NCBI RefSeq assembly: GCF_963576615.1
Contig: NC_088714.1
Coordinates: 558,001-622,000 of the forward strand
Length of the DNA: 64,000 nucleotides
Direction: 5' to 3'
From: Watersipora subatra
Lineage: Eukaryota > Bryozoa > Gymnolaemata > Cheilostomatida > Watersiporidae
Positions 23,099 to 64,000 of this stretch are shown here, piece by piece. Numbering within the stretch: the first letter of the stretch is position 1; every line of letters begins with the position of its first letter. Made by a program: the position numbers and the translations under genes. Below the pieces are notes generated by a model that ran no database searches, was not told where the DNA came from, and worked only from the letters and a program-made list of their open reading frames with translations.

Positions 23099-25701
23099 AG
23101 AGACCAAAATATTCATGCTACTCCAACTACTGCCCTCCGTACCATCATCTTGTACCACTTTGCAATTTTTTACTGCAGTGAAATTTGTTGCACGATAGAT
23201 TTTATTTTTATAGAATATGCAAAGTCACTTAGTGTAGACAAATAGAAATAATTATGTATAAGAGAATCTTACCTAGGCCAACCACAATGCCACAATTTCT
23301 TAACTCAGTTGTATCTCATTGCTCAAGAAAGACATTTCTTTCCTATACAAATCATAGCTGATTGATATTTGAGTGCTTTACTTCTCTATGACCAAATCTA
23401 GCAGAATATATTTTTACACATCATTATGTCTATTGTAAGTTGTTCACTTACTCTCTCATTCATGTTCATAATTATTTATTACCTGTTTATAAAGCAATTA
23501 TATATTATTGTTTTATTGTTTTTGTCTCAAGACCTCATCCGGTGAAATTATCAGTAAACTCTTTTTTATACTAACTATGATATAATATAACTATAATATT
23601 ACTCTAAAGTCTCCTGACCCAAGCTTGTTTACCATTCATATAATCATCTTATTATCTAATTAGGCTCATGTGTAGAACATAATTGGTTCATCACATGGTA
23701 TACGGTAGCATTGTCAGCATGTTATCACTGATCACCACAGACTCTTTCTTGCTGATACCAACTCTGTATGCTATAGAGAATATACTAATTGCACCAGTCA
23801 ATATGTAGCTAGATCAATCAGTTTTATTTATTTACAGTTTGTTACTGATTATAACAAAAATTTGTACCACCTGCTCAACACTTACAACCTTTTGCGAAGC
23901 ATTTGAACCTGCCCAAATTATTACATCATCAAATTCTATTCATAATAAAGGGCAGTAAGAGTACATTATTTATAGGTTATGAACCCTGCACAAATCAGGA
24001 TGTCAAAGATCTTGTTGAAATAGAGCATCCACTTGCAACAACAGAAGTTGCCTTTCTTAATAAAAATTGGGCATTTGTTTTTCTGTATTGCCAGTTATGA
24101 TTACCAGACTGTAACAGCTGCCCGCTGCTTTATTCAAATATAAGTTTGGTAGAAAGTCTGCAGCTCAATACTGATACTAATGCTGTTTACTTACAAATTT
24201 ACTATTTAATTTATGTTTTGACTTGAATTGTTAGATTATTTTAGGCCAAAGACTTTTGAACTTGTTAATAATTACATTGATAAGAGATGATAACTCATAA
24301 ATCTCAACTGAGTTTATTCTAAAATTTGACTTTGCTGGAGCATCCAGAACGATATCATCATACTGCCTAACTAGCTGTCAGAATAAATACTTTATAAATA
24401 CGGACGCCACCCAGACAGTACCAAAAGTAAGTAAGAATCATCAGTTTGCTGCTTGTAATTATTGACCAATTGAGTTGTTACTTTGTGTTCAAGCAGATCT
24501 TTGGGGAGGTTAATAAAAGGCTTCAAATGTATGTTAACAAAGATGGTTTCTCTATAGTTAGAATTAGGAGTCGCTGACTTTAAAGTGATCCTACTAACAT
24601 GTGTAGAACTTACAACATTGTCAGCAGCTCTTCCATAGATCTCTGAATTGTGTGACATGATAACTTTAGTAGGCTGTTGAGTTTCATATGAACTCAAATA
24701 TTGTTTTTTGTGTTGCCATAAAACATTCATTGTCCAGTTTGTAATTTATTGTAATTTTCAATAGTAAAGAAATATGATTTGACTCTATCTAATCACCATA
24801 TGCTGTTCTTGATTATAACACTGACGGTTACCTCAGAGTGTTAAATTCATGTAAAAAATAACATCGAAAAGAAGCAGTTTGGATTAAAACAAAATTTTCC
24901 AAAGAAATTACATTAGCATGTAATTTTGGTTTACTTCAAAGATTGAATTTAAAGAAATATCACAATTTGCAATGCAAAGTTCATAAAGTTATGCTAAAGG
25001 TTTTGTAAGCATAAGAACTTTGGTAGAACCTCCATACACTAGTATAACTAGTAGCATTAGAGGGTGCCGTAAATCTCAGATATGCCAGGTTTTTTGCGGG
25101 TGGGGCAGGTACAATCCTATTAGTTCATTGGAAAATTTAGCTACTTTTGCCTGCGCATTAGCTCAAGTATCTGAAAGTCTCTTTTTGCGGGCAGCAGTCA
25201 AGACTGCAAGTTTTTAAAAGACTCAGGTTAAATAGCAAGACTAGCAAACTTGTACTAAGAGTTTGGGAGTAAAAACAATGTCATTCCACCCAGTCTCATC
25301 ATGTCCTCAGAGTTCTATGTTCCATCACACGATCCCTGCCATGACCTTACAGAACAAAGGGCACAGCGAGTCTAACAAACTGTGTATGAAGAATGCTGTG
25401 ATCTTGTAAGAACTCGCTATAGCTAGTTGTGAGGTTCTAAGGCTTACCCTCTCTTCCGAACCCTTTTATTTCCTTTAAAAGACCAGAGTTATTGTAGTTA
25501 AACGCATTGTTAAAAATATATTCAAAGAAATGAAATACTAGAGAAAGTACAATATATTTTTATAGTACAGAAAGGGCGCAATGGAGACATTTTAAAAGCA
25601 TCCATAGAGATCTGTATAGAGATATATCTATATAATATTATATATATAATATATATACAAAATTATATATATAATAGAGTTGACTTTCTGACCTCTCTGG
25701 G

Positions 25702-25820
25702 GTCACGACAGGTCTGTTTCGTGCTTCTGCACTTGCCAGGTGACTTGCGTTAAAATACAGGGGGCTTTTGAACACAAGTCACCTGACAAGTGCAAAAGCA
25801 CGAAACAGACCTGTCGTGAC
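25702..25820. repeat. Foldback of two inverted hammerhead-like motifs
   Basis: Two 46-bp arms (25702-25747 and 25775-25820) are near-perfect inverted copies around a 27-base spacer. Read outward, arm 2 on + has the order of a type I hammerhead ribozyme with a short stem III: GTCAC (stem I), CTGACAA (core), GTGC-AAAA-GCAC (stem II), GAA, ACA-GACC-TGT (stem III), C (cleavage position), GTGAC (stem I return). Arm 1 gives the same on the minus strand with CTGGCAA and loop AGAA. The canonical core is CUGANGA, so both copies deviate and are probably inactive. Such motifs are known from Penelope-like elements and retrozymes. TA-rich DNA flanks both sides. Confidence 0.6.
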
Positions 25821-25974
25821 ACCAGATAAAAACACCAATCTGGAAGAAAGATAAGTAACATTAACTTATTCTAACACTCTAGTTATATATATACTGTATA
25901 TATATACTCTATATACACTGTACATATATACTCTATATATACTGTATATCTTTATTTTATACATAGTGGTATGA

Positions 25975-26285: not shown

Positions 26286-27028
26286 ATACTATTAAGTACC
26301 TTGGCTTGTGCCTTTGTTTTTTACGTGACAGTTACAGGTTCTCAACTCATTTCAACTTACGTGATATGAACAAATTGCATACAAAATCCAACAATTATTT
26401 GGAAAATATCATTGCCAGCTGCTTTAACAATCTTTCACCTAATATTTGTTCTTTTAGCAGCAAAAGGCATTTATACGCTATATATCAAGCTTTTTATTTA
26501 ATCTTAGTGACTAGCTGTTGCCCATTTTTAGTTTTTGTTGTTGTATTATTGTATAGCATAATTTGAAAAAAACATTTCTATTTGAATTAAGATTATTGCC
26601 AGTAAAATAATATACTGTATATAAATACCCATGAATACTACTGTATAGTTCTATATATACGCATGCATATCTCTAGATGTATTCAGATAGCTGCCCTTTT
26701 ATCAGAAAATGCCCAATAGAATAGCCTATGACCAATCACAGGCCAGCTTGCTGAGTGCCCCGATTTTGAATATAGGAAACCATAGAGTGTTGTGAATCAG
26801 ATGTTCTCCATTGTTCAGCTATTTACCTGTTGGCAAAGCTTTCAGCTAGCTAGTTGTCATGCAAATGAGCTACTGGCATTCATGCATGAAGAGGATTACG
26901 CGCGTGGCGTCACATCCTTTCTGACACGATTTAGTAGCAAGTAGAGAGTTGAAAAAGAAGAACAAGATGTGAGACAGTGAAAAGGACACTCATCTTTGAT
27001 TGAAGAGGAAGAGAAAGAACTCGCGAGG

Positions 27029-30000
27029 ATGTCAATTAATCTCATGTTGTCTCGTCTCTGTAGGCGGCATTTCACCAGAATTGTCCTCCTTATAGTCGTC
27101 ACCTACTTTATCTTTGCCATAAGGTTTTTTGGGAGCCCTAGTGAAGAGCCAGCCTCTCACCTTGACAAAGAACAGACAACAGAGCTATCAGAATTTAAAG
27201 ACAGCTATGAAGAACAGCAAAAAATTTCGGTAAAAGGAAAATCAGAAAAAGAAACGCAGCCAGTATTCCAAGCTATAGACCAAACTGAAGCTGACAGGGC
27301 TAGGCGGCTGCAAGTATTAAAGGAAATATATGCTGTGCCTCACCCTGGGGACGATGTGTACAAACTGAATGAATCTCTTAGTAGGACTATAGACCTAGAT
27401 CGAAAACCAAATGATCTCAGACCGGAGGCCTGCAAAATCATCAAATATGATATAGATTCACTGCCAACGGTGAGTGTGATATTTCCAATCTATAACGAAG
27501 CACTAAGCATGTTGCTGCGGGCTGTACACAGTGTCATCAACAACACTCCGCAACACCTGCTCGTGGATGTCATACTGGTAGATGATGATAGCAAGAATGA
27601 AAATCTCAAAGAACCTTTAGAGCGTTATGTAGCCTTGCTGCCCTCCAAAGTGAGAATTATACGTAATAAAAAGAGGGAAGGGCTGATAAGAGCGAGGATG
27701 AGAGGCGCGAATGAGGCCAAGGGAGAGGTTTTGATGTTTCAAGACGTGCATACAGAAATGTCAGAAGGTTGGGCAGAGCCAATTTTATCATACATACAGT
27801 CTCATCCTAAGACTGTCGTACAGCCGTTGGTAGAAGAGTTGCAAGTCAACAGAATAGAGTGGCCTAAGCGGTGAGTGAACTGAATATCTCTGTTACTAAC
27901 ATACTCCTACTAAATACACTTTCAAAGGTTATATTAGAGTACAATAGGACATGGAATCTAAACTGATATGCTCTCTAAAGTTATCCAAGACACAAGACAG
28001 GCCAAAAATACATTAGTCTTTGTTTCTGTACATGCATCAGAACAGAGCTGACCAGTTATATCAACTCTACAAAAAATAAATGATGTCACTGTCTAAAATG
28101 GAAGATCTCTAAATGATGACCAAAACAAGTTTCTAAAAATAAATAAAAAAGTAATAATAAACATATATATATCAAAAGTGTATAAATGGTTACACAACTA
28201 ACTGAAATGCAAATGCATGTATTAGTAGTCATTTGCAGATAGATTTCTAGAATGCTTGCAGACATTTTCACAATGTTCAGTGTCAGAGTCCCACATGCAG
28301 GCACAATACAGTCAGACTAAACAGACTAACAGACTAAATGACATATTCAGCTTATAAGACTTATTCAGCACATAAAATGGAAAAAAGTATTTCTGAAAAT
28401 TACAAAATTGGCAAATAGCTGAATGTAAAAATTAAGATAACTCCCAAAAAGCCACCAATTACTATACTGACAGTGTTTCAACTGTTTCAAATTGAACTGA
28501 CAGCTTTAATGGCATCTTATCTTAGACACCATAGAGAGGATAACTTCTAATTTTTACTTGATTGGTCAGGTTACCAGTAGTCTGTAGCTGAAAAATATGT
28601 TTAATATTGGGACATTATACTGTTATGATTGAGAGCAAGCTAAGATGCATTCACCCACAAACCGTAACATTTACAATCCAAGTAGCTTCCTTTTTCACAT
28701 GCTTCAATCACAATTTCTTAGGTGCTGAAACTGCAAAGATTTTTCTAATTAATGATTTACCTGCATCTGCTAAATGACATGAGATGAAATGTGTCTAGTA
28801 AAGATAGAATGTTTAGTTTCCGTCATACAAATGACTCTTATAAGCCAAGTGATAATGCTCAGCTGCCGTCCATATAGAAACCATTCAGTGCAGCAGTCAC
28901 ATGTTGCATTGATAGGTGTGAGCACTTGTTCTCTGCTGCCAGACTGAGGTAAATCACATGCCTCTGGACATGTGTGCCATAATTTACACTGGCTGTCCTG
29001 CAACATCATGTCACATGTAATAAACTCTCAGGCTTACACTTAGTCAAATTAGCATTGGACTTGCTTTTTTCATAACTCACACCTTTCAGAGTTGTCCTAT
29101 CATGGCTTCTTGTAGAGTTGTCTTCTCAAAAATAACCGATTATAAGCACATGCAATTTCATAGAAGTGAGTAAAATTCACTTACCTTATAATATGTTGTT
29201 TTACCAGGGATGAAATCTCACATGATGATATGTGGAGAGGAGTGTTCATGTGGGACATGAGGTATGCATGGAATTTGATACCAAAGAAATATTCAAGCTG
29301 GCAGCAGACGAAGGCTGAGCCGTGGCCCAATCCTGTTCTTGTGGGCTGTTCTTTAGCTGTCAGCAGAGAATGGTTTGATCTTGTTGGTAAGGCGCTCACG
29401 CTGCCTCATTAAGACAACTTAAGATAAACTTATACCTTATGAAGAACGGAATCAATGTTTTCCTATTTGGTACTCTGTTAAACATTTTCTGGGCTATTCT
29501 GGCAGATATACACTGAATTAACCATAATGTGTTACAATTAACATTTAGTGATTCAAAAGCTGTGATTTTTCCAGATGACGAGGACATAAGATCACCAGAT
29601 CAACTGTTCCTCAGATGAGTAATCGAGGAACGTAATCAACTGTTCCTCAGATGAGTCGGGGAATGTAATGTTTTGCATGAGACTGATTCATCATCAAAAC
29701 ATGAAAAGTTGTTTGCCGCTTCAATTGTATCCAAACTGTCTTCAAAGCGAGAAATAATAATAACGATAATAACAACAATAATGGCATGCCCACACTCAGA
29801 ACTTTAAAAGCTTACATGTACAGTGTTGAATGACTACCACTTTAAGGTATATTCATCAACCCTCCAGTTGGTTATCAGAATATTTCCAATAAAACCTGCT
29901 AGCACACATCTGTACCAGCATAAACGAACCTTTGTTTAATCTTGGCTTGATAATGTTGCAGGTGGCTTTGATCAGGGACTCAACATCTGGGGTGGAGAAA

Positions 30001-35800: not shown

Positions 35801-38800
35801 TTTCTCACAGATGAATCTTACCTTGAGATGAAAAGTCTGGAGTCTCGTAGCCTTTCGACCAATCCATTTGGTCGGGTCTTCTAACCATGACCCCTTCATG
35901 CTTTAGAATTCTGCAAAACTCTTCTATCTCTTCATGAGCTTTGTTCAGATGCTCTTGAGGAAACCCCGAGCCGCCGTGGCTCTTGTAAAAGTCCCAGTAC
36001 TTCTCGCTCGTGTTTGCCTGAAAGAAGAAATATACTCTGTGCTTAAGGCCCTGCGGTATCGTCAACCTACAGCACCTGCAGACGGACTAGCAAATCATTA
36101 GCTGGTGCGGATTCAAACTAGGAGTGCATGTTTAGTCTCTGAGCAAAGACCGTCAAACCTCAAACAACATCGGAAACACCTATCGTTGTCAGCTAGTGAC
36201 TTACCTCAGTGATGTACACTTGTGTTAAAATATAATATGCATAAAACTCCTCAAATGTGATAACTGGAATCACTACATCTATAAAACGCAGAATTGAAAA
36301 CTAACAATAGTGGATCAGTAAAGTAAAATATGCGGGATAGTACAGGTGAATATCTCAACAGCTAGTAAATAGGTCTCGTAACTGTTGGTAATGGGCATAC
36401 TAGAGATTGGAATCCGGTAGAGTTGAGGCTATCTGTGGTTACCCTACAGATGTTAACAGTAAACATCTACTATTGATAAGTATTCCACATAATACCATAA
36501 GATGATCGCAAACTTTCATGTGATATCTTAGCAGAAAAGAACACGTATAACTGGCTGTATGATCTGCCCCGTGCTAATCTTGACACCCGCATTGCATTCT
36601 TTATAAGCCTGAAATAAATACCTTAACTTCAACAGTAAACTGAGGAACCATAGCTCCTTCCACTCGGCCAACAATTACTTCCTCTAGTGGATCCCACTCA
36701 TTGCAAGACCAAACAGGTGAGCTCCTCTGTAGACTCGTCTCCTCCAGAAACCTCCGCTCGGCTGTTTGCTGTGAAAAGTGATGGCTTGATATGCACACAA
36801 ATAGTAATAATTCATGTTAATAATTCTCCATAACAAATTTTTAAGAATAGTTCTCCAATCGATAGGAGTTACGTGTACTTTAACCAATGATCCTCTGTTA
36901 GTTATGAGCTGACTTTGGAGACAACCAATTGTTGTTGTAAGGGAGTGTGTTAACCAATCAAAACTGTTAGTTGTTAGTGCATTAAAAGGTAGAATTGGAA
37001 ACCAGCATGCTTTGCACTGATAGGCTGTTATAACTACACCATAGTCAGCAGATTGACCTAGTTCAAACTAGTGTGAGGTCAATTTTTGGGACAATTTCAG
37101 TCACCCCATAGTAAAGTTTCTTTAAAATATGTCAGCTGATTGAGATCTTGGCAAAATCATTTCAGTCACAGCTTTATTCATGGGTTAGTTTAAAGTGTGA
37201 GTCCTAGCTTTTAGAGTATTTTTCAAAATTATGAAAATGTTTAAAATCAGGAAAATGTGACAGATTTTTTACTGAACAAAAAGTTTAGCAAAAAAAGAAA
37301 TGGTGATAAACAATTAGAGGGAGAGGTTAGCGCAGAACTGAAACATACTGGAAAACTATCAAGCAAATCGGTGAGCGAATTTGTGGGCGGTGTGCTGGAG
37401 TTGAGGTCTGGCGTACTCGTAGGTCTCTCTTTATGATTGGCTAGCTGATCATCAGTGACTCACAGGTCTCTCTTTATGATTGGCTAGCTGATCATCAGCG
37501 ACACACAGGTCTCTCTTTATGATTGGCTAGCTGATCATCAGCGACACACATGTCTTTCTTCATGATTGGCTAGCTGATCGTCAGCGGCGAAGTTTTAAAA
37601 TGCACTGAAAGAAACTAGTCTTACCCTAGGACACTTAGGTATTCGCCTCATCTAACTTTAGCGTTTTCGCGGAGTCATCTTCTCACGGAAATTTCATGTG
37701 CGAAACTAAACTATCATAACGAACGAGCGAAAACGCGAAATTAAATAGCTTTGTTCATTGATAGTCCAAGAAACAAATGGCAGCAAGCGATCAAATTGCA
37801 TTATCAATCTTAACTACACCATTCTACCCGCAGTTTACAATTACAAACTAGTCCCAAATTAAAAATTTTTCTTATTGGTAAACTGAATCTGAGGAATCTA
37901 ATTATGTTTGTTCCACTGCATTTATTTTCATATCACTATATTTTTGCACTCATCAGAGCTGCGAAATTAAGTTGCAGCGAAATTTTACTTTGTATGCTAC
38001 TCACGAAACTAAATACTAGCGAAATATAAGTGTCCTAGGGTACTTATACAAAACCTTGTCGCTATAAAATAACATCATGTCATCCTGAATAGAAAATTAT
38101 TTATAAATAAATTTATTAGAAACAATTACTACAAAAATAAATTATATATTTTATGAATCATAATAGAATTAATTTTTTAGATGCTCAAAATAAATAATTA
38201 TGGTTCATGACAAGGTTGAGGGTTGTAGCAGCGTAGTGAGCCTGTGGAGTATGTGTGCCGCTGGAGCATGGAGTCATCCACTAATAGATAGGATGACCTT
38301 GCATTCTTTCATGCATATCTTCATCACATCACGTACGCCCATTTCGAATCATGAAGGGGGAGCATGATCAGACATTTACCGCTATCTCCAGGGTATGTTT
38401 GCAAATGATTTCCGTATGGCACCACCCATCAGTGATTTTTGTCAGACTGCCGAGTATTGCCTAGGCCAGGGGTCTGCAACCTTTTCCACTCAAAGAGCCA
38501 TTTGGACCCGCAATGGGAGCCACAAACCCCCTTTGATATTTTAAATTAAAAAATACATAAATACTACATGTAACGTTTTTGTTTAGCTTAAATTAATGCT
38601 TTTATACCATGTTTACAACATAAAACGAAAAAGTGTGGCATGTAAAATGATTTACCTGCTGAGAACAAAAATTAATACTTTTGCAAATAACAATAAAATA
38701 GCTAATGATAACAATAAAATAGCTAATGATAACAATAAAATAGCTAATGATAACAATAAAATAGCTAATGATAACAATAAAATAGCTAATGATAACAATA

Positions 38801-41001
38801 AAATAGCTAATGATAACAATAAAATAGCTAATGATAACAATAAAATAGCTAATGATAACAATAAAATAGCTAATGATAACAATAAAATAGCTAATGATAA
38901 CAATAAAATAGCTAATGATAACAATAAAATAGCTAATGATAACAATAAAATAGCTAATGATAACAATAAAATAGCTAATGATAACAATAAAATAGCTAAT
39001 GATAACAATAAAATAGCTAATGATAACAATAAAATAGCTAATGATAACAATAAAATAGCTAATGATAACAATAAAATAGCTAATGATAACAATAAAATAG
39101 CTAATGATAACAATAAAATAGCTAATGATAACAATAAAATAGCTAATGATAACAATAAAATAGCTAATGATAACAATAAAATAGCTAATGATAACAATAA
39201 AATAGCTAATGATAACAATAAAATAGCTAATGATAACAATAAAATAGCTAATGATAACAATAAAATAGCTAATGATAACAATAAAATAGCTAATGATAAC
39301 AATAAAATAGCTAATGATAACAATAAAATAGCTAATGATAACAATAAAATAGCTAATGATAACAATAAAATAGCTAATGATAACAATAAAATAGCTAATG
39401 ATAACAATAATAATAATAACTTGTTTGTTTATAAAGTCACTTTCAAGAAAAATTTCAATTTCATGTTTAATTCAGTCCTTCTTTTAATAAAACGCTGAAC
39501 TTAAATTCTAACTGCAACAAATGTCATTCATGCAGCATTTTTTGCTCAAATTAGCCTTACGCATCAGTTCCGAAATAGCCTTTTTTCTCTCATCTCCCTC
39601 TGGATATTTTTGAGCAAAGGCTGCGTGTTTATTCTGAAAGTGTATTGCGATATTTGACTTTTTGTTTGCAAATTTCTCATTACATATTAAGCAAATTGGT
39701 GAACCAGTCTCATGAGCAGTGAAAGCAAACCAATCAGCCCGCTTAGGATTAGAATCAGCCCACCTAGGATTAGAATCAGCCCGCTTAGGATTAGAATCAG
39801 CCCCCTAGAATTAGAATCAGCCCGCTTAGGATTAGAATCAGCCCACCTAGGATTAGAATCAGTCCGCTTAGGATTAGAATCAGCCCACCTAGGATTAGAA
39901 TCAGCCCACCTAGGATTAGAATCAACCCCCTAGGATTAGAATCAGCCTACCTAGGATTAGAATCAGCCCATCTAGGATTAGAATCAGCCCACCTAGGATT
40001 AGAATCAGCCCACCTAGGATTAGAATCAGCCCACCTAGGATTAGAATCAGCCCACCTAGGATTAAATGTTCTATTTTCACTCTCATTTCTCTTTCCTTAG
40101 TATTCGCCATAGTTTGCCTACCTGGGGTAAAAAAATCAATAAGTGTCGTGCCAGCTGGTGTATTTTTGGCGGTTTTATTGGCGCATAAATAATGACGCAT
40201 AACAAGCAAAAATGTTTCAGCTATCATAATTACAATTTTTTTTAATTATATTACAAAATTTAGTGATAAAACTTCTATATTTTTATGAATTACTCAACAT
40301 ATGGTAAAAAAGGGAAAAAATCAAAGTCAGAGGGAGCCGCGGTGATGGGATGAAAGAGGCGCATGTGGCTCCGGAGCCACGGGTTGCTGACGCCTGGCCT
40401 AAGCGATTCATGAATGTAGGGGTCAAAAACTTTGATCAGCAAATTACCAGAGAAAATCTTTTTAGGGACAGCCAAAAGCAATTTAGTAAATATTTCCTCA
40501 TCACGAAGGCTACGTAGATTCTTTATAGACGTAATTCACACCACTTCCGCAATATCCAATTACTTGTCGCCTCTTGTTTCATGAACAGAAGGGTTGCACA
40601 CTAACATAGGCAAGCCCTCATTGACAAAAAATGTTTTATCAATCAACTTGACACCAAATTTAGTTATTGCTTATCCCTAGTAAGGGTTGCTTGAATATTC
40701 TGTTCGCATATCGAGGTCTGCCTGAACACACGTGCAAGTATAATCTAAGATGCAGCCTAACACCTCTTGGCATCATCATCAGCATCTCTTGGCATCATCA
40801 GCAGCACCTTCTACTATCCACAACTCTACAACTCATCCCCTACCATCCTACCATCACAACTCTTATGATAGCCTACCAGCTGACTGAAAGTGCGGGAAAT
40901 CTTACCTGGATAGCACTCGCAGCGCTGAGCTGGCCTGTTTGGAAATCCCCGCTCTTGCTATGGATGTTCCTCTTGGAGGGTGTCTGGCTGCTCAACCGAA
41001 G
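32804..41001 (-). CDS. GATM: Glycine amidinotransferase, mitochondrial (AGAT)
   Basis: Makes guanidinoacetate and ornithine from arginine and glycine, the first step of creatine synthesis. Exons in order on the minus strand: 41001-40906, 36768-36622, 36017-35822, 34571-34381, 34053-33916, 33576-33345, 33254-33121, 32896-32804 (stop TAG); phases close. The body aligns end to end with vertebrate GATM ([54 protein letters not shown]). Catalytic residues are present: Asp in FDAADF, His in NPMHID, Cys in GGGFHCWT (human Asp254, His303, Cys407). The 5' exon at 41001 follows a good acceptor (TTTTTGCAG), has no ATG, and encodes Ser/Arg-rich sequence like a transit peptide, so one more 5' exon is needed (see 44421-44516). 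With it the protein is 440 aa, against 423 in human. Confidence 0.95.
37421..37590. repeat. Four tandem copies of a 46-bp unit
   Basis: Units carry GGTCTCTCTTTATGATTGGC followed by TAGCTGATCATCAGCGACAC. They lie in a GATM intron just before a MITE. Confidence 0.85.
37622..38042. mobile_element. MITE with 16-bp terminal inverted repeats, TA-flanked
   Basis: The ends TACCCTAGGACACTTA and TAAGTGTCCTAGGGTA are exact inverted complements, and the outer TA fits a TA target duplication (Tc1/mariner-like). The 421-bp body has no coding capacity and repeats GCGAAA motifs. It lies in a GATM intron. Confidence 0.8.
38688..39411. repeat. 21-bp minisatellite, about 34 near-identical units
   Basis: Unit AACAATAAAATAGCTAATGA plus T, apparently without mismatches for over 700 bp. 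As the unit is 21 bp, one frame stays open on each strand (KIANDNN repeats on +, LLSLAIL repeats on minus); these are not genes. It lies inside the hAT element. Confidence 0.97.
39735..40064. repeat. 21-bp minisatellite derived from transposase codons
   Basis: About 16 units of GATTAGAATCAGCCCACCTA plus G. On the minus strand, in the frame of the BED finger, each unit reads NPRWADS, and the array ends in [23 protein letters not shown]. The array therefore seems to have grown out of the transposase reading frame. Confidence 0.85.
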
Positions 41002-43860: not shown

Positions 43861-43880
43861 TTAGCTATTGACACCAATCA

Positions 43881-44150
43881 CTAGCCAGGGATATACAGTA
43901 GGTAGCCATGCTAAGGTCACTAGCCAGGGATATACAGTAGGTAGCCATGCTAAGGTCACTAGCCAGGGATATACAGTAGGTAGCCATGCTAAGGTCACTA
44001 GCCAGGGATATACAGTAGGTAGCCATGCTAAGGTCACTAGCCAGGGATATACAGTAGGTAGCCATGCTAAGGTCACTAGCCAGGGATATACAGTAGGTAG
44101 CCATGCTAAGGTCACTAGCCAGGGATATACAGTAGGTAGCCATGCTAAGA
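43881..44150. repeat. 39-bp minisatellite, 7 units
   Basis: Units of TCACTAGCCAGGGATATACA plus GTAGGTAGCCATGCTAAGG, practically identical. It ends only about 70 bp before the LRR start codon, so it may lie in that gene's promoter. Three frames read through it on both strands because 39 is a multiple of 3. Confidence 0.93.
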
Positions 44151-53200: not shown

Positions 53201-56200
53201 TTGTATCTATTACCATTTTCTTATTTTTGGTATGTTGTCTGACAGGTTTCGGCAGCAATGCAATATAACACAGAAGATAGTTTCTGCTTTATGAACTTCA
53301 TGTATTTATTACAATGGGGCTAGTATAGGATGTTTATTGTGATTAACGATGCAAGTGAAAAATTACAGCATCTTTAGAACTCAACCACAATATGGTGCAA
53401 TAATCATACAAGATTCGCCAAAGTTTGACAGGATTAGCTTGAGTTTTAGGCATGTTTCGTACCATGGTAACCAACTTTGCAGTCCTGCCGTTACGAGAGA
53501 CCTAAAACAGCAAATATCAGCATCCAGATCTTGATTTGCTTAGGTTGCCTTGCCATAGCCAATGTGACTTACTGTATATAACAACTCAAACAACCTTGTT
53601 AATGAACAAAGATCTAGTTAATGAACGAAGACCTAGTTAATGACCAACGAACTAGTTAATGACCAACGACCTAGTTAATGACCAACGACCTAGTTAATGC
53701 TGCTCGGTTCATTTAAGACTGTCCACTCAGCCAGTGTTATCAGCAGGTATCGCAATGCAGCAGAGATAATATGATGTACAAGTACAACCTCTGCAGCCAG
53801 TATCACGCTCGTGACATACATAAACAGACCACGGTCAAATTTACTGACATGTTAAATCTCACTATAAAATCTGGTTGCTGACTTTGCTTCCACTGTAGAC
53901 AGTTGAACTTATTCTGTTAATAATGTAGCTAACTTTTTGACAATGAGCCGGATATCTACACACTCTTAGCATATGATCACGTACATTTCAATCTACAACT
54001 CGCTCTTGACCCTCCGCTTTGGCAATACCCCATAGAGTTGACCCTCTGCCTCCGATACCACGTAGAGTTGACCCTCTGCTTTGGCAATACCCCGTAGAGT
54101 TGACCCTCTACCTCCGATACCACGTAGGGTTGACCATCCATTTTGGCAATACCACGTAGAGTTGACTCTTTGCTTCAGATACCACGTAGGGATGACCCTC
54201 CACTTTGGCGATACCCCGTAGAGTTGACTATTTGCCTCAGATACCCAGAATGTATAATCATCTATGCGTACGGCCGCTTACGCATTCCTCTCTTATGCTG
54301 CCATGTTGAGCAGGACAGACTGTCAACGGCACAAAAAGTAGCCTCTACCGACTGCTTGCTTCACCTTTTTTTGCTGTCATTAGGAAGGCATCTTTTATAA
54401 TTTATTTATTAAAAAATGTTATGTCAAAATTCAATAAATAATGTGTTGAATTAGAAATGAGACAAATTGGAAATAGCCTTAAATTAAAGACAAACAACTA
54501 CCTGCTCTTTTTAATCGTAATACAAATACTTTTATAGATTATCTTGCTATAGCAAAAATCTTGTTAGCGCTAATGAAAAAAGTGACACGTATGCATGTTG
54601 TGTGCCTTTACATTATGTATGTTCATCTGCATATAGTGAATTCTGATTGTAGTTTGTGACCATAATAGCTATGAAAGCTAATAGCTTTCACTGCCTTACA
54701 ACTAAATGCATAGTCTGAGTGAATACTCTTAAAAACACATATTCTTCAACTCAACATAAAAGCAGAGTTTGCATATAACAATTGACTGACAAAGAAAAGA
54801 GAGCTTAACTTTATGAATAATAATTGCAGACACACAACTTTCATTAAAAAACAGGCTTGTGTGGCAGGTGCCCACAACTCCCGTTACACTGGATTGTCTA
54901 GTAAAGTAAGCGCTTGTAGTTTCTATTATACTGTCGTGTTTACCAAGGTTAGCTATTGTATGTGATGAAGTTTTGCTATTACAGGTGAAGTGATAGAGTG
55001 TTGCTATTACAGGTAAAGTGACAGAGTGTTGTTCTTACAGGTAAAGTACTAGAGTGTTGCTCTTACAGGTAAAGTGACAGAGTGTTGTTCTTACAGGTAA
55101 AGTGGCGAGCGTTGTCAAGAAGAAAAGCTGGCAGTTTTGGCTACTGGTCACAGCCATTATTGTAATCCTTGGGATAATACCATGCATTATCAATACAACA
55201 ACATTGATAAAAAGATCCAATGAACAAGACGACGAGAGCATTAACGAAGAATTCCTTAAATATTTATTGGTTTGTATTTATGCCTCATAACGAGACTTGA
55301 CTCGCCTTATTAGCACTTGTCTCACTTGAACAAGACTTGACTCGAGATCCTTATTAGCACTTGTTTCACTTGAACAAGACTTGACTCGAGATCCTTATTA
55401 GCACTTGTCTCACTTGAACAAGACTTGACTCGAGATCCTTATTAGCAATTGTCTCACTTGAACAAGACTTGACTCGAGATCCTGATTAGCACTTGTCTCA
55501 CTTGAACAAGACTTGACTCGAGATCCTTATTAGCACTTGTCTTACTTGAACAAGACTTGACTCGAGATCCTTATTTACACTTGTTTCACTTGAACAAGAC
55601 TTGACTCGAGATCCTTATTAGCACTTGTCTCACTTGAACAAGACTTGACTCGAGATCCTTATTAGCACTTGTCTCACTTGAACGAGACTTGACTCGCCTT
55701 ATTAGCACTTGTCTCACTTGAACGAGACTTGACTCGCCTTATTAGCACTTATCTCACTTGAACGAGACTTGACTTGCCTTATTAGCACTTGTCTCACTTG
55801 AACGAGACTTGACTCGCCTTATTAGCACTTGTCTCACTTGAACGAGACTTGACTCGCCTTATTAGCACTTGTCTGACTTGAACGAGACTTGACTCGCCTT
55901 ATCAGCAATTGTCTCACTTGAACGAGACTTGACTCGCCTTATTAGCACTTGTCTCACTTGAACGAGACTTGACTCGCCTCATTAGCACTTGTCTCACTTG
56001 AACGAGACTTGACTCGCCTTATTAGCACTTGTCTCACTTGAACGAGACTTGACTCGCTTTATTAGCACTTGTCTCACTTGAACGAGACTTGACTCGCTTT
56101 ATTAGCACTTGTCTCACTTGATGTGAGGGTTACAAGTTTGAAATTATATATTTTTATAATTATAAAAAAATTGTTCAAAACCAAATTTTCTTATTGGAAA

Positions 56201-60815: not shown

Positions 60816-63800
60816 TCCCCCTTTCTAAGCGGGTAACCATCTGAACTAAATGAATCGCACAGGCACTTTTGGGGAAAACTAGATACAGAGGCTAAAGTAA
60901 GCGTACGACTTGAAAGCTTATAAAGTAAGTATACAATTTGAGCAAATAGTACTAAAGTAAACAGTAAAATGAGAGTCTTAGTTAAGGTTGTGTTAATTGC
61001 TATCCTCAAGTATTAGGAGTCAGCTATCTTTGAAGAAAGTTAAGCGGTCGGTAGCATGTAGCATTGATTGTCTTTAGAATGCATGTCCATATTAATAGAG
61101 CTGGTAATCCTCTAGTCTTTTAGGTATTCTTCGCTCTCTAGCTAGAGCATAACCTCTACCTGATCTAGGATAACTGGCGGAGTGAGTTAGATGCGAACTC
61201 GTGCCCTCTGCGCTATCCAGATCAGGTGCCTGCAGTCCTGAAGAGTCGGCCTCAATGTTAATCATAGGACCTGGCACCTCTGTACTCTCAGGACCCGGCA
61301 GAGAAGCTTTAGGTGATGGCACCTCGGGGCTCTCTTCCCGGACAGACACCAGAGCACTCCTGTTTCTTCTGATTGTCCCCTTAGCAGTTTGCACATTGTA
61401 AGAACGTGGAGCAATGTTACTTAGTACTGTGCCTTCCCGTTTCATGTCCCTAACATAAACTGATGAGCCAGGCTTGAGCTCCGGTAACTGGTGTGCTCTG
61501 TGTCTTCTGTTGTAGTTCGTCATGGTCCTTTCTCTTATTTCCTTCTCTTTGTCAACTACTGATTCAGTGCCCCTCTGCAGAGAACATTGAGCAGGAAGGA
61601 TCGGCAGAGTAGTTCTGAGAAGTCGGCCCATCAAGAGCTCCGATGGAGTAAAGCCATTCTCTAAGGGTGTAGCTTTGTAGATCATTAAGCTCAAATAGGG
61701 ATCTGCTGATTTCATCCACATTCTCTTTACAGTGCCAACAGCTCTCTCAGCTTCTCCGTTTGACTTAGGATAGCGGGGAGAGCTAGTAATATGCTGAAAG
61801 CCATAAAAACGAGAGAACTCATAAAATTCTTTTGAGCTAAACTGGGGACCGTTATCAGATATCATGACTTGTGGAATGCCATGCGCTGAAAAAATAGCCT
61901 TAAGTTTGTCTATGACAGTAAGAGTCCCCATTGAGTCCAATCGTCTGACCTCTATATAGCGACTATAATAGTCCACAACCAATAGATATTGTTGTTTCTT
62001 AAACTCAAATATGTCTGTTCCCAGTCTCGACCAAGCAATGTCAGGAAACGTTGAATGATTGAGAGGCTCAACAGGAGTGGGTGAGTTGATCTTGCATTGG
62101 CGGCAGCTTTGTACCATTTCTTTTATCTGAGCTGACATTCCTGGCCACCAAACAGATCTCCTGGCTCTTCCCAGACATTTTGTAATGCCCTGGTGAGCCT
62201 GGTGAATCTGATCCAAAACCTCTAGCCGCATCTCGATGGGAATAACAATCCGTTGATTATATAACAGTAAGCCATCAACCTCCGTGAAGTGTCCCTTCTC
62301 GTCCCAGTACGGGTGTAACGCCGTGTTGGCGTCTGTCTTGTAAGTGGACCATCCTAGTCTCATTGACTTCAGAACCTCCTGACAAATAGTGTCAATACGC
62401 TGTGCTTCTTTGATCTTGCTAATCTGTGGATCTTCAATTACTATTGGTGTAGTACAGATATTCAGTTCCGAGACAAAGGCAAGATCTACAACAGAAGGTT
62501 CCTCAACAGGTGCCCTAGATAGAGCGTCAGAGAGATGATTCTGACTGCCTCGAACATACTCAACTTTGGGAGCATATCGCATCAATCTGAGACGCATTCT
62601 CAAAACTCTGGCTGGCACCTGATCCAGGTCTTTCACATTCATAAGCTGAACGAGCGGCTTGTGGTCAGTTTCCACAGTAAAAACTAGACCTCTCAAGAAC
62701 TGATTTAACTTGTCGCAAGCCCAAGCCATCGCGAGGGCCTCCTTCTCAATCACTGCATAGTTTCTTTCGACGTCAGTAAGAGATCTAGATGCATAATAAA
62801 CTGGTCTCCTTGTTCCATCCTTTTGAATCTGGAACATGGTGGCCCCGATTCCGTATTGGCTAGCATCAGTAGTTACAATGGTTTGTAGTGAACAGTCATA
62901 ATGAGACATGACTGCTGTTGAGGTGAGGACCTTTTTAGTCTCCTGGAAAGCTTCTTGTGGGAGTCCCCAGACCCATGTCTTGCTCTCTTTCAACAATTCC
63001 CTCATTGGTGCATTGATCGATGAAAGATGAGGTATAAAGCGAGCTAGCTGATTGAGCATTCCATTTAATCTTCTTAGCTCAGTCTTGTTAGTCGGCGCTG
63101 GATACTCTTGTATGGCCTTTATCTTAGCAGGATCTGCGCTCACTCCTCCAGCATCAATTATGTGACCAAGAAACTTTACAGAAGTCTTGCCGATGTCACA
63201 TTTTGCTTCATTGAGGGTGAGCCCTGCGTGTTCCAACCTAGCTAACACCAAGCGCAGAGTTCTGTCATGACTCTCGGCGTCAGCACCGTGAACTAAGATG
63301 TCATCCATGTGACATATAACATTATCTATGCCCGTTAGTAACCCTGACATGGCTCGGGAGAATATTTCAGGAGCACTGGAGATTCCAAAAGGTAATCTGT
63401 TATAACAGTACCGGCCAAACGGTGTCAAAAACGTTGTGAGCTTTCTGGAGCTTTCATCTAGACATATCTGCCAAAACCCACTGTTGGCATCAAGTTTTGA
63501 AAATACTTTGCTGTTTCCTAAGAGAGCTATGCTATCATCAACTGCTGGCATAGGAAAGATTTCTCTTCTAACAGCTCTGTTTAGGCCAGTTAGGTCCACA
63601 CAGATTCGTACTTCGCCTGAAGGTTTTAAAACTGGCACCATGCCACTGCACCAGTCAGTGGCCTCAGTCATAGGGGATATCACTCCTTGGTGCACCATCT
63701 CCTCAAGCTTTAGCCTAGCTTTTTCTCTTAGAGGCAGTGGTACCTTCCTTGGTGTGAATATACAGACTGGTTTGCTCTCATGTTGAAGTGAGATTTTGTA

Positions 63801-64000
63801 ACAATAACCTTTTAGAAGTCCAAGCCCTCTAAACAGATTTGGAAAATCAGCTCGAATTTCCTTTGTCACTTCCAGTTGGTCTTTGATGTGACAAGTGACC
63901 AGCTCTAGCTTCTCACAGGCATGTCTACTCAGAAGCGAAACTGGTTGGTCTTTGATGACGTATGCTGTTTCTGTTATAGATCTTTCCTTGTAAGTCAGCC
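60816..64000 (-). mobile_element. Ty3/Gypsy LTR retrotransposon, 3' part
   Basis: The visible part carries a long pol frame (61092-63869) with, in order, reverse transcriptase, RNase H and an integrase with zinc-binding and catalytic core regions. The visible part looks whole and therefore young. The gag-proximal part and the other LTR lie beyond the right edge. The element is antisense to the LRR gene and outside it. Confidence 0.9.

Follow-up and report, generated by a model that had tools for sequence, protein, structure and literature searches.

Inverted hammerhead motifs in the window

The sequence analyzed here, hereafter the window, is a 64,000-nt stretch of the Watersipora subatra genome (G000:C7:558001-622000). 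The feature under study is an inverted repeat spanning 25696-25826, with a left arm (25696-25755) and a right arm (25767-25826) of 60 bp each that are 92% complementary and separated by an 11-nt gap. Positions 1-25064 hold three direct tandem copies of a ∼10.5–10.7 kb unit (90–100% alike in the stretches listed); the palindrome lies just past the third and was not found in the other unit copies. Two further frames lie in the window: one of 292 aa (26996-27871, + strand), which has a domain of glycosyl transferase family 2, and one of 925 aa (61095-63869, − strand), which combines reverse transcriptase, RNase H and integrase domains and is read by us as a Gypsy-like LTR retroelement. Long and very even minisatellites occur at 38687-39415 (21 bp×34.7, 99%), 43878-44149 (39 bp×7, 100%) and 55289-56121 (40 bp×20, 95%).

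As the initial annotation had proposed, the repeat encodes two type I hammerhead-like motifs, one per strand. The first (25702-25744, − strand) has the core CTGGCAA, in which A6 and G8 are changed, and a predicted cut at 25707/25706; the second (25778-25820, + strand) has the core CTGACAA, in which G8 is changed, and a predicted cut at 25815/25816. Read on the outward strand, both arms have the layout GTCAC-core-GTGC-loop-GCAC-GAA-ACA-GACC-TGT-C^GTGAC. All parts named in the annotation (stem I GTCAC/GTGAC, stem II GTGC/GCAC, GAA, stem III ACA/TGT and the triplet GTC) were present, and 12 of 12 stem pairs form in both arms, giving three helices, open at stem I. Segments 25702-25739 (−) and 25783-25820 (+) differ from the family hammerhead by two mismatches each, and none of 100 window shuffles contained as many matches. 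Two aspects of the described geometry were corrected: the arms are 60 bp long rather than 46 bp, and the motifs are arranged not tail to tail but head to head (5′-to-5′), with their 3′ ends outward. The accompanying doubt about activity was justified for this copy, whose cores have CTGACAA (+) and CTGGCAA (−) in place of CTGANGA. As a single strand, the entire repeat would form a single extended hairpin (−93.7 kcal/mol, z −15.46), so that both ribozymes would be hidden. The miRNA-type Rfam matches within the palindrome were all under gathering scores.

Of the element arm on the left, the repeat retains the inner portion while the outer one is missing. The right arm continues into a 3′ part (pseudo-LTR; 25821-25889, + strand) that forms a tailless end in a TA-rich stretch, and TA-rich sequence flanks the repeat on the left (25624-25676) and the right (25884-25949). 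The arms differ from each other at ∼8% of positions. Their center was scored over 19 nt (25752-25770) against a younger copy, and letters similar to those at its edges are kept in older relatives, e.g. L031. Comparison of the inner ends with such relatives would assign the window copy to the transcript-start class described below, although it was left out of the 78 and 68 pairs counted there. Another older copy, L007, has the core CTGACGA and the same loop as the window copy, and the G8-to-A change in the window may represent a CpG change from an L007-like core.

A dispersed family with intact cores

The searched genome comprised 783,720,542 bases in 239 contigs. A similarity search with the window repeat returned at least 80 matches, two per locus and one per strand, with 40 of 432 first-look candidates scored. 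A pattern combining the canonical core with the family stem II and stem III, the kind of genome search for intact copies that the initial annotation had called for, occurred exactly 217 times across the whole genome (112 on the + strand, 105 on the −), compared to zero in the reversed control. Given this abundance of canonical-core relatives, the core changes in the window represent decay of a canonical ribozyme. The typical relative is a head-to-head pair of element arms in (TA)n, and TA-rich flanks were seen for most printed copies as on both sides of the window copy. Direct tandem units with 2400-bp spacing were found at C3 and C6. In relatives the open frame is closed at its 3′ end by an intact hammerhead, and tandem copies have this hammerhead a second time upstream. 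The locus sample is not random, as L001–L045 came from a similarity search favoring short pairs and later loci from one-arm patterns.

Two findings had been named beforehand as jointly speaking against a hammerhead, namely the lack of any covariance-model hit together with a lack of relatives whose core is canonical. The first was obtained, in that Rfam gave no hammerhead match in the window, but canonical-core copies abound. Moreover, Rfam reported no hammerhead at E values up to 10 in L126 and L073, two loci with perfect cores; the absent window match is therefore not evidence against a hammerhead. Searching the whole genome with RF00163 returned zero matches, and the search controls were equally silent. 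The Rfam model falls short of such a short hammerhead form.

More distant copies retained the ribozyme. In each of L148, L149, L150, L151 and L153 (52–58% identity to the protein P0001 described below), a hammerhead lies downstream of the ORF, with the CTGANGA core and GAA kept and the stems differing; loop III length differs between copies as well. For the family and these five copies, own strands paired at 25/30, 24/25 and 18/18 positions in stems I, II and III, respectively, compared to 79/150, 93/120 and 74/90 when strands were swapped among the six, a test made on few copies, some of the five alike, with the layout picked for best pairing. L152, which is close to L149 and has C3 changed, was left out of this comparison.

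A second hammerhead, CTGATGAGGCTTCAATAGCCGAAACAGTACTGTC, occurs genome-wide at 259-bp spacing (e.g. G000:C1:61810332-61811919). A looser hammerhead pattern had 1792 matches in the genome compared to 3 for its reversed control, and apart from ∼15, the matches listed were of the CTGATGAGGCTTCAATAGCCGAAACAGTACTGTC kind or close to it. This 259-bp-spaced family looks like an animal retrozyme. No CTGATGAGGCTTCAATAGCCGAAACAGTACTGTC hammerhead was found in the window within 3 mismatches, and one copy of that family lies beside a pair in L025.

Open reading frame of the long copies

In long copies the open frame extends as far as the hammerhead, whose core supplies the UGA stop codon. Its 756-aa product, P0001, contains FDVIDFYPSI, MGSFDGAETCELVG and GLYRDDGLAI, which we take to be reverse transcriptase (RT) motifs of Penelope-like elements (PLEs), and its C-terminal region includes the stretch TYIGLCTTDFKSRFRNH, presumably the GIY-YIG-like endonuclease of such elements. 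The ORF of a second family, P0002, is 57% identical to P0001 and keeps the same motifs. Searches of Pfam, NCBIfam, PHROGs, PADLOC and PDB sequences gave no convincing match for an RT or endonuclease. The overall architecture, i.e. 2400-bp direct units, inverted ends with one tail and TA-rich targets, supports the Penelope-like name. P0001 has relatives at 97–100% identity and others at 52–70%, some of them intact, including a 2455-bp tandem (59 of 5741 first-look candidates scored).

Individual loci illustrate how frame and ribozyme are placed. At L074 (G000:C3:24547700-24552200) the frame's stop is the UGA of the hammerhead core, such that frame and ribozyme meet there, unlike L149, where the frame appears to finish well ahead of the ribozyme. 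A separate 30-kb region (G000:C8:13504735-13534309) holds many PLE units of another family on both strands, with a 57%-identical ORF, intact frames and several units exactly 2455 bp apart.

Arm ends at the putative transcript start and the predicted ribozyme cut

The positions at which arms stop inside a pair were counted from the predicted cut, with 0 denoting an arm that begins at the G of GTGAC and positive values denoting upstream bases kept. Among 60 distinct arms with the exact 51-nt 3′ segment, 28 stop at 47–51, 17 extend beyond 51, and 2 stop at 8 and 13; a further 13 stop at −6 to 0, of which three (L035 twice, L137) merely reflect the loss of a single base from an arm that is complete elsewhere, leaving 10, with 4 exactly at 0. 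The mode of the 47–51 class is 49, the A of a CCATTC that we take to resemble an initiator. The element RNA would then start at this A, ∼49 nt before the cut.

Across the whole genome, the base preceding a given position departed from the element in 3 copies at −2, 0 at −1, 21 at 0, 11 at +1 and 2 at +2. Setting aside 7 T at position 0 and 9 A at +1 as CpG transitions reduced these counts to 3 (unread), 0, 14, 2 and 2. On reading the loci, the 14 departures at the cut resolved into 11 distinct insertions, compared to a neighbor mean of 1.75 (Poisson 2.4e-6), and L093 proved to be a further cut-site insertion that the pattern had missed. Unambiguous cut-site ends were seen in L090, L093 and L108, and L109 and L112 show them in both arms, with fillers of 5 and 21 nt, respectively. 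At +1, the two departures that remained were a point change (L120) and a rearranged end (L119). Six of the seven T at 0 were read, the seventh (in L085) being unread: those in L030, L094, L099, L110 and L111 are point changes, while that in L112 is filler beside a true cut-site end. A common joint, GGGGTCACCCC or its complement, was shared by L113, L116 (with its twin L117) and L118, and with one change by L114 (twin L115); it may have formed from two ...GTCAC-3′ cDNA ends annealed over five bases with one C:C mismatch.

The second family (L149 type) has the triplet GTA. Using one pattern, and without a neighbor control, 13 of 14 matches were arms starting exactly at that family's own cut, the remaining match (L154) being a point mutation. 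The partner arm, which was not selected by the pattern, likewise stops at the cut in L156, L159, L163, L164 and L167, and stops one base short of it in L155. That some relatives end exactly at the predicted RNA cut suggests that these ribozymes cut in living cells.

Reverse transcriptases commonly stall at RNA structure, and the folded hammerhead sits in the enzyme's path, so cut-site ends could instead mark RT stops rather than cleavage products. We consider this unlikely. An enzyme arriving from the 3′ side meets stem I five bases before the cut and would be expected to stop at the outer edge of that stem, whereas across the genome positions +1 and +2 show no more departures than point mutation would give, and the exact cut position stands out. 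The second family, with other stem letters, likewise ends at its cut.

Relationship between the two arms of a pair

Among 80 neighboring 3′ ends in the loci, 78 were head to head, one was direct and one had its 3′ ends facing. In 74 of the 78 head-to-head pairs just one of the two outer ends is tailed, whereas 3 pairs have no tail and 1 has two; the tail lengthens an outer end by ∼70 nt. Independent choice would give the one-tail arrangement in about half of the pairs (binomial 4.8e-18, on a count that contains some duplicated loci: L114/L115, L116/L117 and L070/L081).

Inner ends could be compared in 68 of the 78 pairs, the losses being repeated centers or a missing anchor (L091, L109, L116, L117 and L103 among them). 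Both ends belonged to the start class in 37 pairs, to the long class in 17 and to the cut class in 8 (7 without L035, a one-base-deletion artifact). The rest were 3 hammerhead-interior/start, 2 start/short (misplaced by the extension routine) and 1 interior/interior; the loci misplaced by this routine were L003, L083 and L015. L105 does pair a hammerhead-interior end with a start end. None of the 68 pairs combined ends from two different classes among cut, start and long. Restricting the comparison to 36 pairs from the later-set loci gave 8 start/start, 17 long/long and 7 cut/cut, with L083, L105, L120 and L140 left over.

Arm lengths in long pairs were also compared. Removal of L082 and L147 (long unmatched centers) and the repeats L071 and L081 from 18 long pairs left 14 distinct junctions, 6 of which had arms equal within 6%, a limit chosen after data inspection; shuffling expects 0.59, and 0 of 20000 shuffles reached 6. 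Some long pairs are clearly unequal (e.g. 1680/1255 and 217/954). At the centers, some arms overlap by a few bases and others are separated by filler of up to ∼50 nt.

A different origin of such palindromes is fold-back or self-priming, where a single strand copies itself, as was proposed with an antisense template for Penelope palindromes of rotifers (PMC3846280). The near-perfect palindromes, the near-equal arms of the 6 long junctions and the centers overlapping by a few bases are all in keeping with fold-back. Yet it does not by itself yield the one-tail rule observed in 74 of 78 pairs, nor does it accommodate the strongly unequal arms or the longer fillers, and we regard it as quite improbable.

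Classification and comparison with known elements

The initial annotation had pointed to either Penelope-like elements or retrozymes as carriers of such ribozymes. The former was supported by the PLE-type frame, the direct tandems, the tail and the TA target, and the latter was not. As a retrozyme, the window family would be a small non-coding hammerhead repeat mobilized by another element, a view compatible with its type I hammerhead, with the short copies lacking coding capacity and with the presence of a retrozyme-like family in the same genome. In long copies, however, the arms are continuous with the 756-aa open frame, and the short copies are head-to-head pairs rather than direct tandems. 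This explanation is accordingly very improbable, and it was rejected for the window family on account of the open frame; the other hammerhead family, spaced at 259 bp, is the better match to a retrozyme. A small DNA transposon (MITE) whose terminal inverted repeats merely resemble hammerheads would account for numerous short inverted-repeat copies in TA-rich targets, but we give it practically no credence and rejected it for the asymmetric outer ends, for inner ends that range from 0 to ∼2000 bp and for an RT-like frame instead of a transposase in long copies, to which the direct 2400-bp tandems and the changed hammerhead stems of related elements may be added.

Minimal type I hammerheads of PLEs were reportedly described by Cervera and de la Pena in 2014 and by Lunse et al. 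in 2017. As portrayed in PMC7761336, these resemble the window family in their short or missing helix III, pseudo-LTR location and tandem copies; unlike them, the window family has a three-pair stem III and putative cleavage footprints in genomic ends. Metazoan non-LTR retrozymes share the type I hammerhead but, according to PMC7229834 and PMC7761336, are small, non-coding and in direct tandem, whereas the window family has an open frame and head-to-head copies.

Closer counterparts are Poseidon of Anolis (PAc; PMC11167929) and Penelope of Adineta vaga (PMC3846280), which likewise have direct-tandem and inverted pseudo-LTRs, a tail at one end and an AT-rich target. Such endonuclease-bearing PLEs also have a hammerhead near the junction of pseudo-LTR and ORF, and their single ORF has RT-like and GIY-YIG-like stretches of the kind putatively assigned in P0001. 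In contrast to Poseidon and the Adineta Penelope as portrayed there, the stop codon of the window family lies inside the hammerhead core, its tail is ∼70 nt rather than 30–40, many of its head-to-head pairs are very short, and its arms have ends at the predicted cut. Already known features of PLEs are pseudo-LTRs that contain hammerheads or are inverted, units in tandem and tails on one side. No report of insertion ends at a hammerhead cut, or of coupling between tail and strand, appeared in the titles and abstract beginnings of openly licensed PMC papers, which is a weak negative.

A model for paired insertion

Frangieh et al. (PMC11167929) showed that the Anolis PLE protein cuts and extends both target strands and that reverse transcription has two neighboring internal start sites on the RNA, with the tail corresponding to the stretch that separates them. 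From the arm ends and their statistics, which are direct observations, we infer, going a step beyond the Anolis findings, a paired enzyme in the bryozoan elements acting on one RNA with a defined start site. Transcription of the element would begin at the initiator-like CCA+1TTC just before the hammerhead, and the element protein would cut a TA-rich target on both strands. Each target strand may then prime reverse transcription at its own internal site, the two sites lying next to each other on one RNA, and both cDNAs would extend to the 5′ end of that shared RNA. This end would be the hammerhead cut if the RNA had cleaved itself and the transcript start otherwise. Finally, the two cDNAs would be joined head to head by their ends. 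A start near the 5′ pseudo-LTR would give a very short pair (the start class, the window's kind), a start near the downstream pseudo-LTR of a longer or tandem RNA would give a long pair, and an RNA already cut by its own hammerhead would give a cut/cut pair.

On balance, we lean toward the view that each insertion arises from a paired machine copying the same RNA twice, with one start site per target strand, and that the RNA is often hammerhead-cut first in vivo. Several observations do not fit easily. The unequal long arms are unexplained by one RNA with one 5′ end, barring premature stops; 4 of the 78 pairs break the one-tail rule; and L105 mixes end classes. Against a required role for cleavage, the Anolis PLE was inserted in vitro without any need for it, and no RNA reads ended at the cut, according to PMC11167929.

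The window copy itself is probably an old, dead, strongly 5′-truncated PLE insertion whose cores have decayed since. If the proposed mechanism of paired insertion is correct, the minimal hammerheads of PLEs would gain an in vivo footprint, the genome would keep a base-exact record of ribozyme cleavage, and the tail and the inverted pseudo-LTRs would be explained by a single mechanism. Exact cut-site ends in two lineages with different triplets offer a genomic test at single-base precision, applicable to the genomes of other animals as well. Furthermore, the one-tail rule and the agreement between arm ends constrain the mode of PLE insertion.
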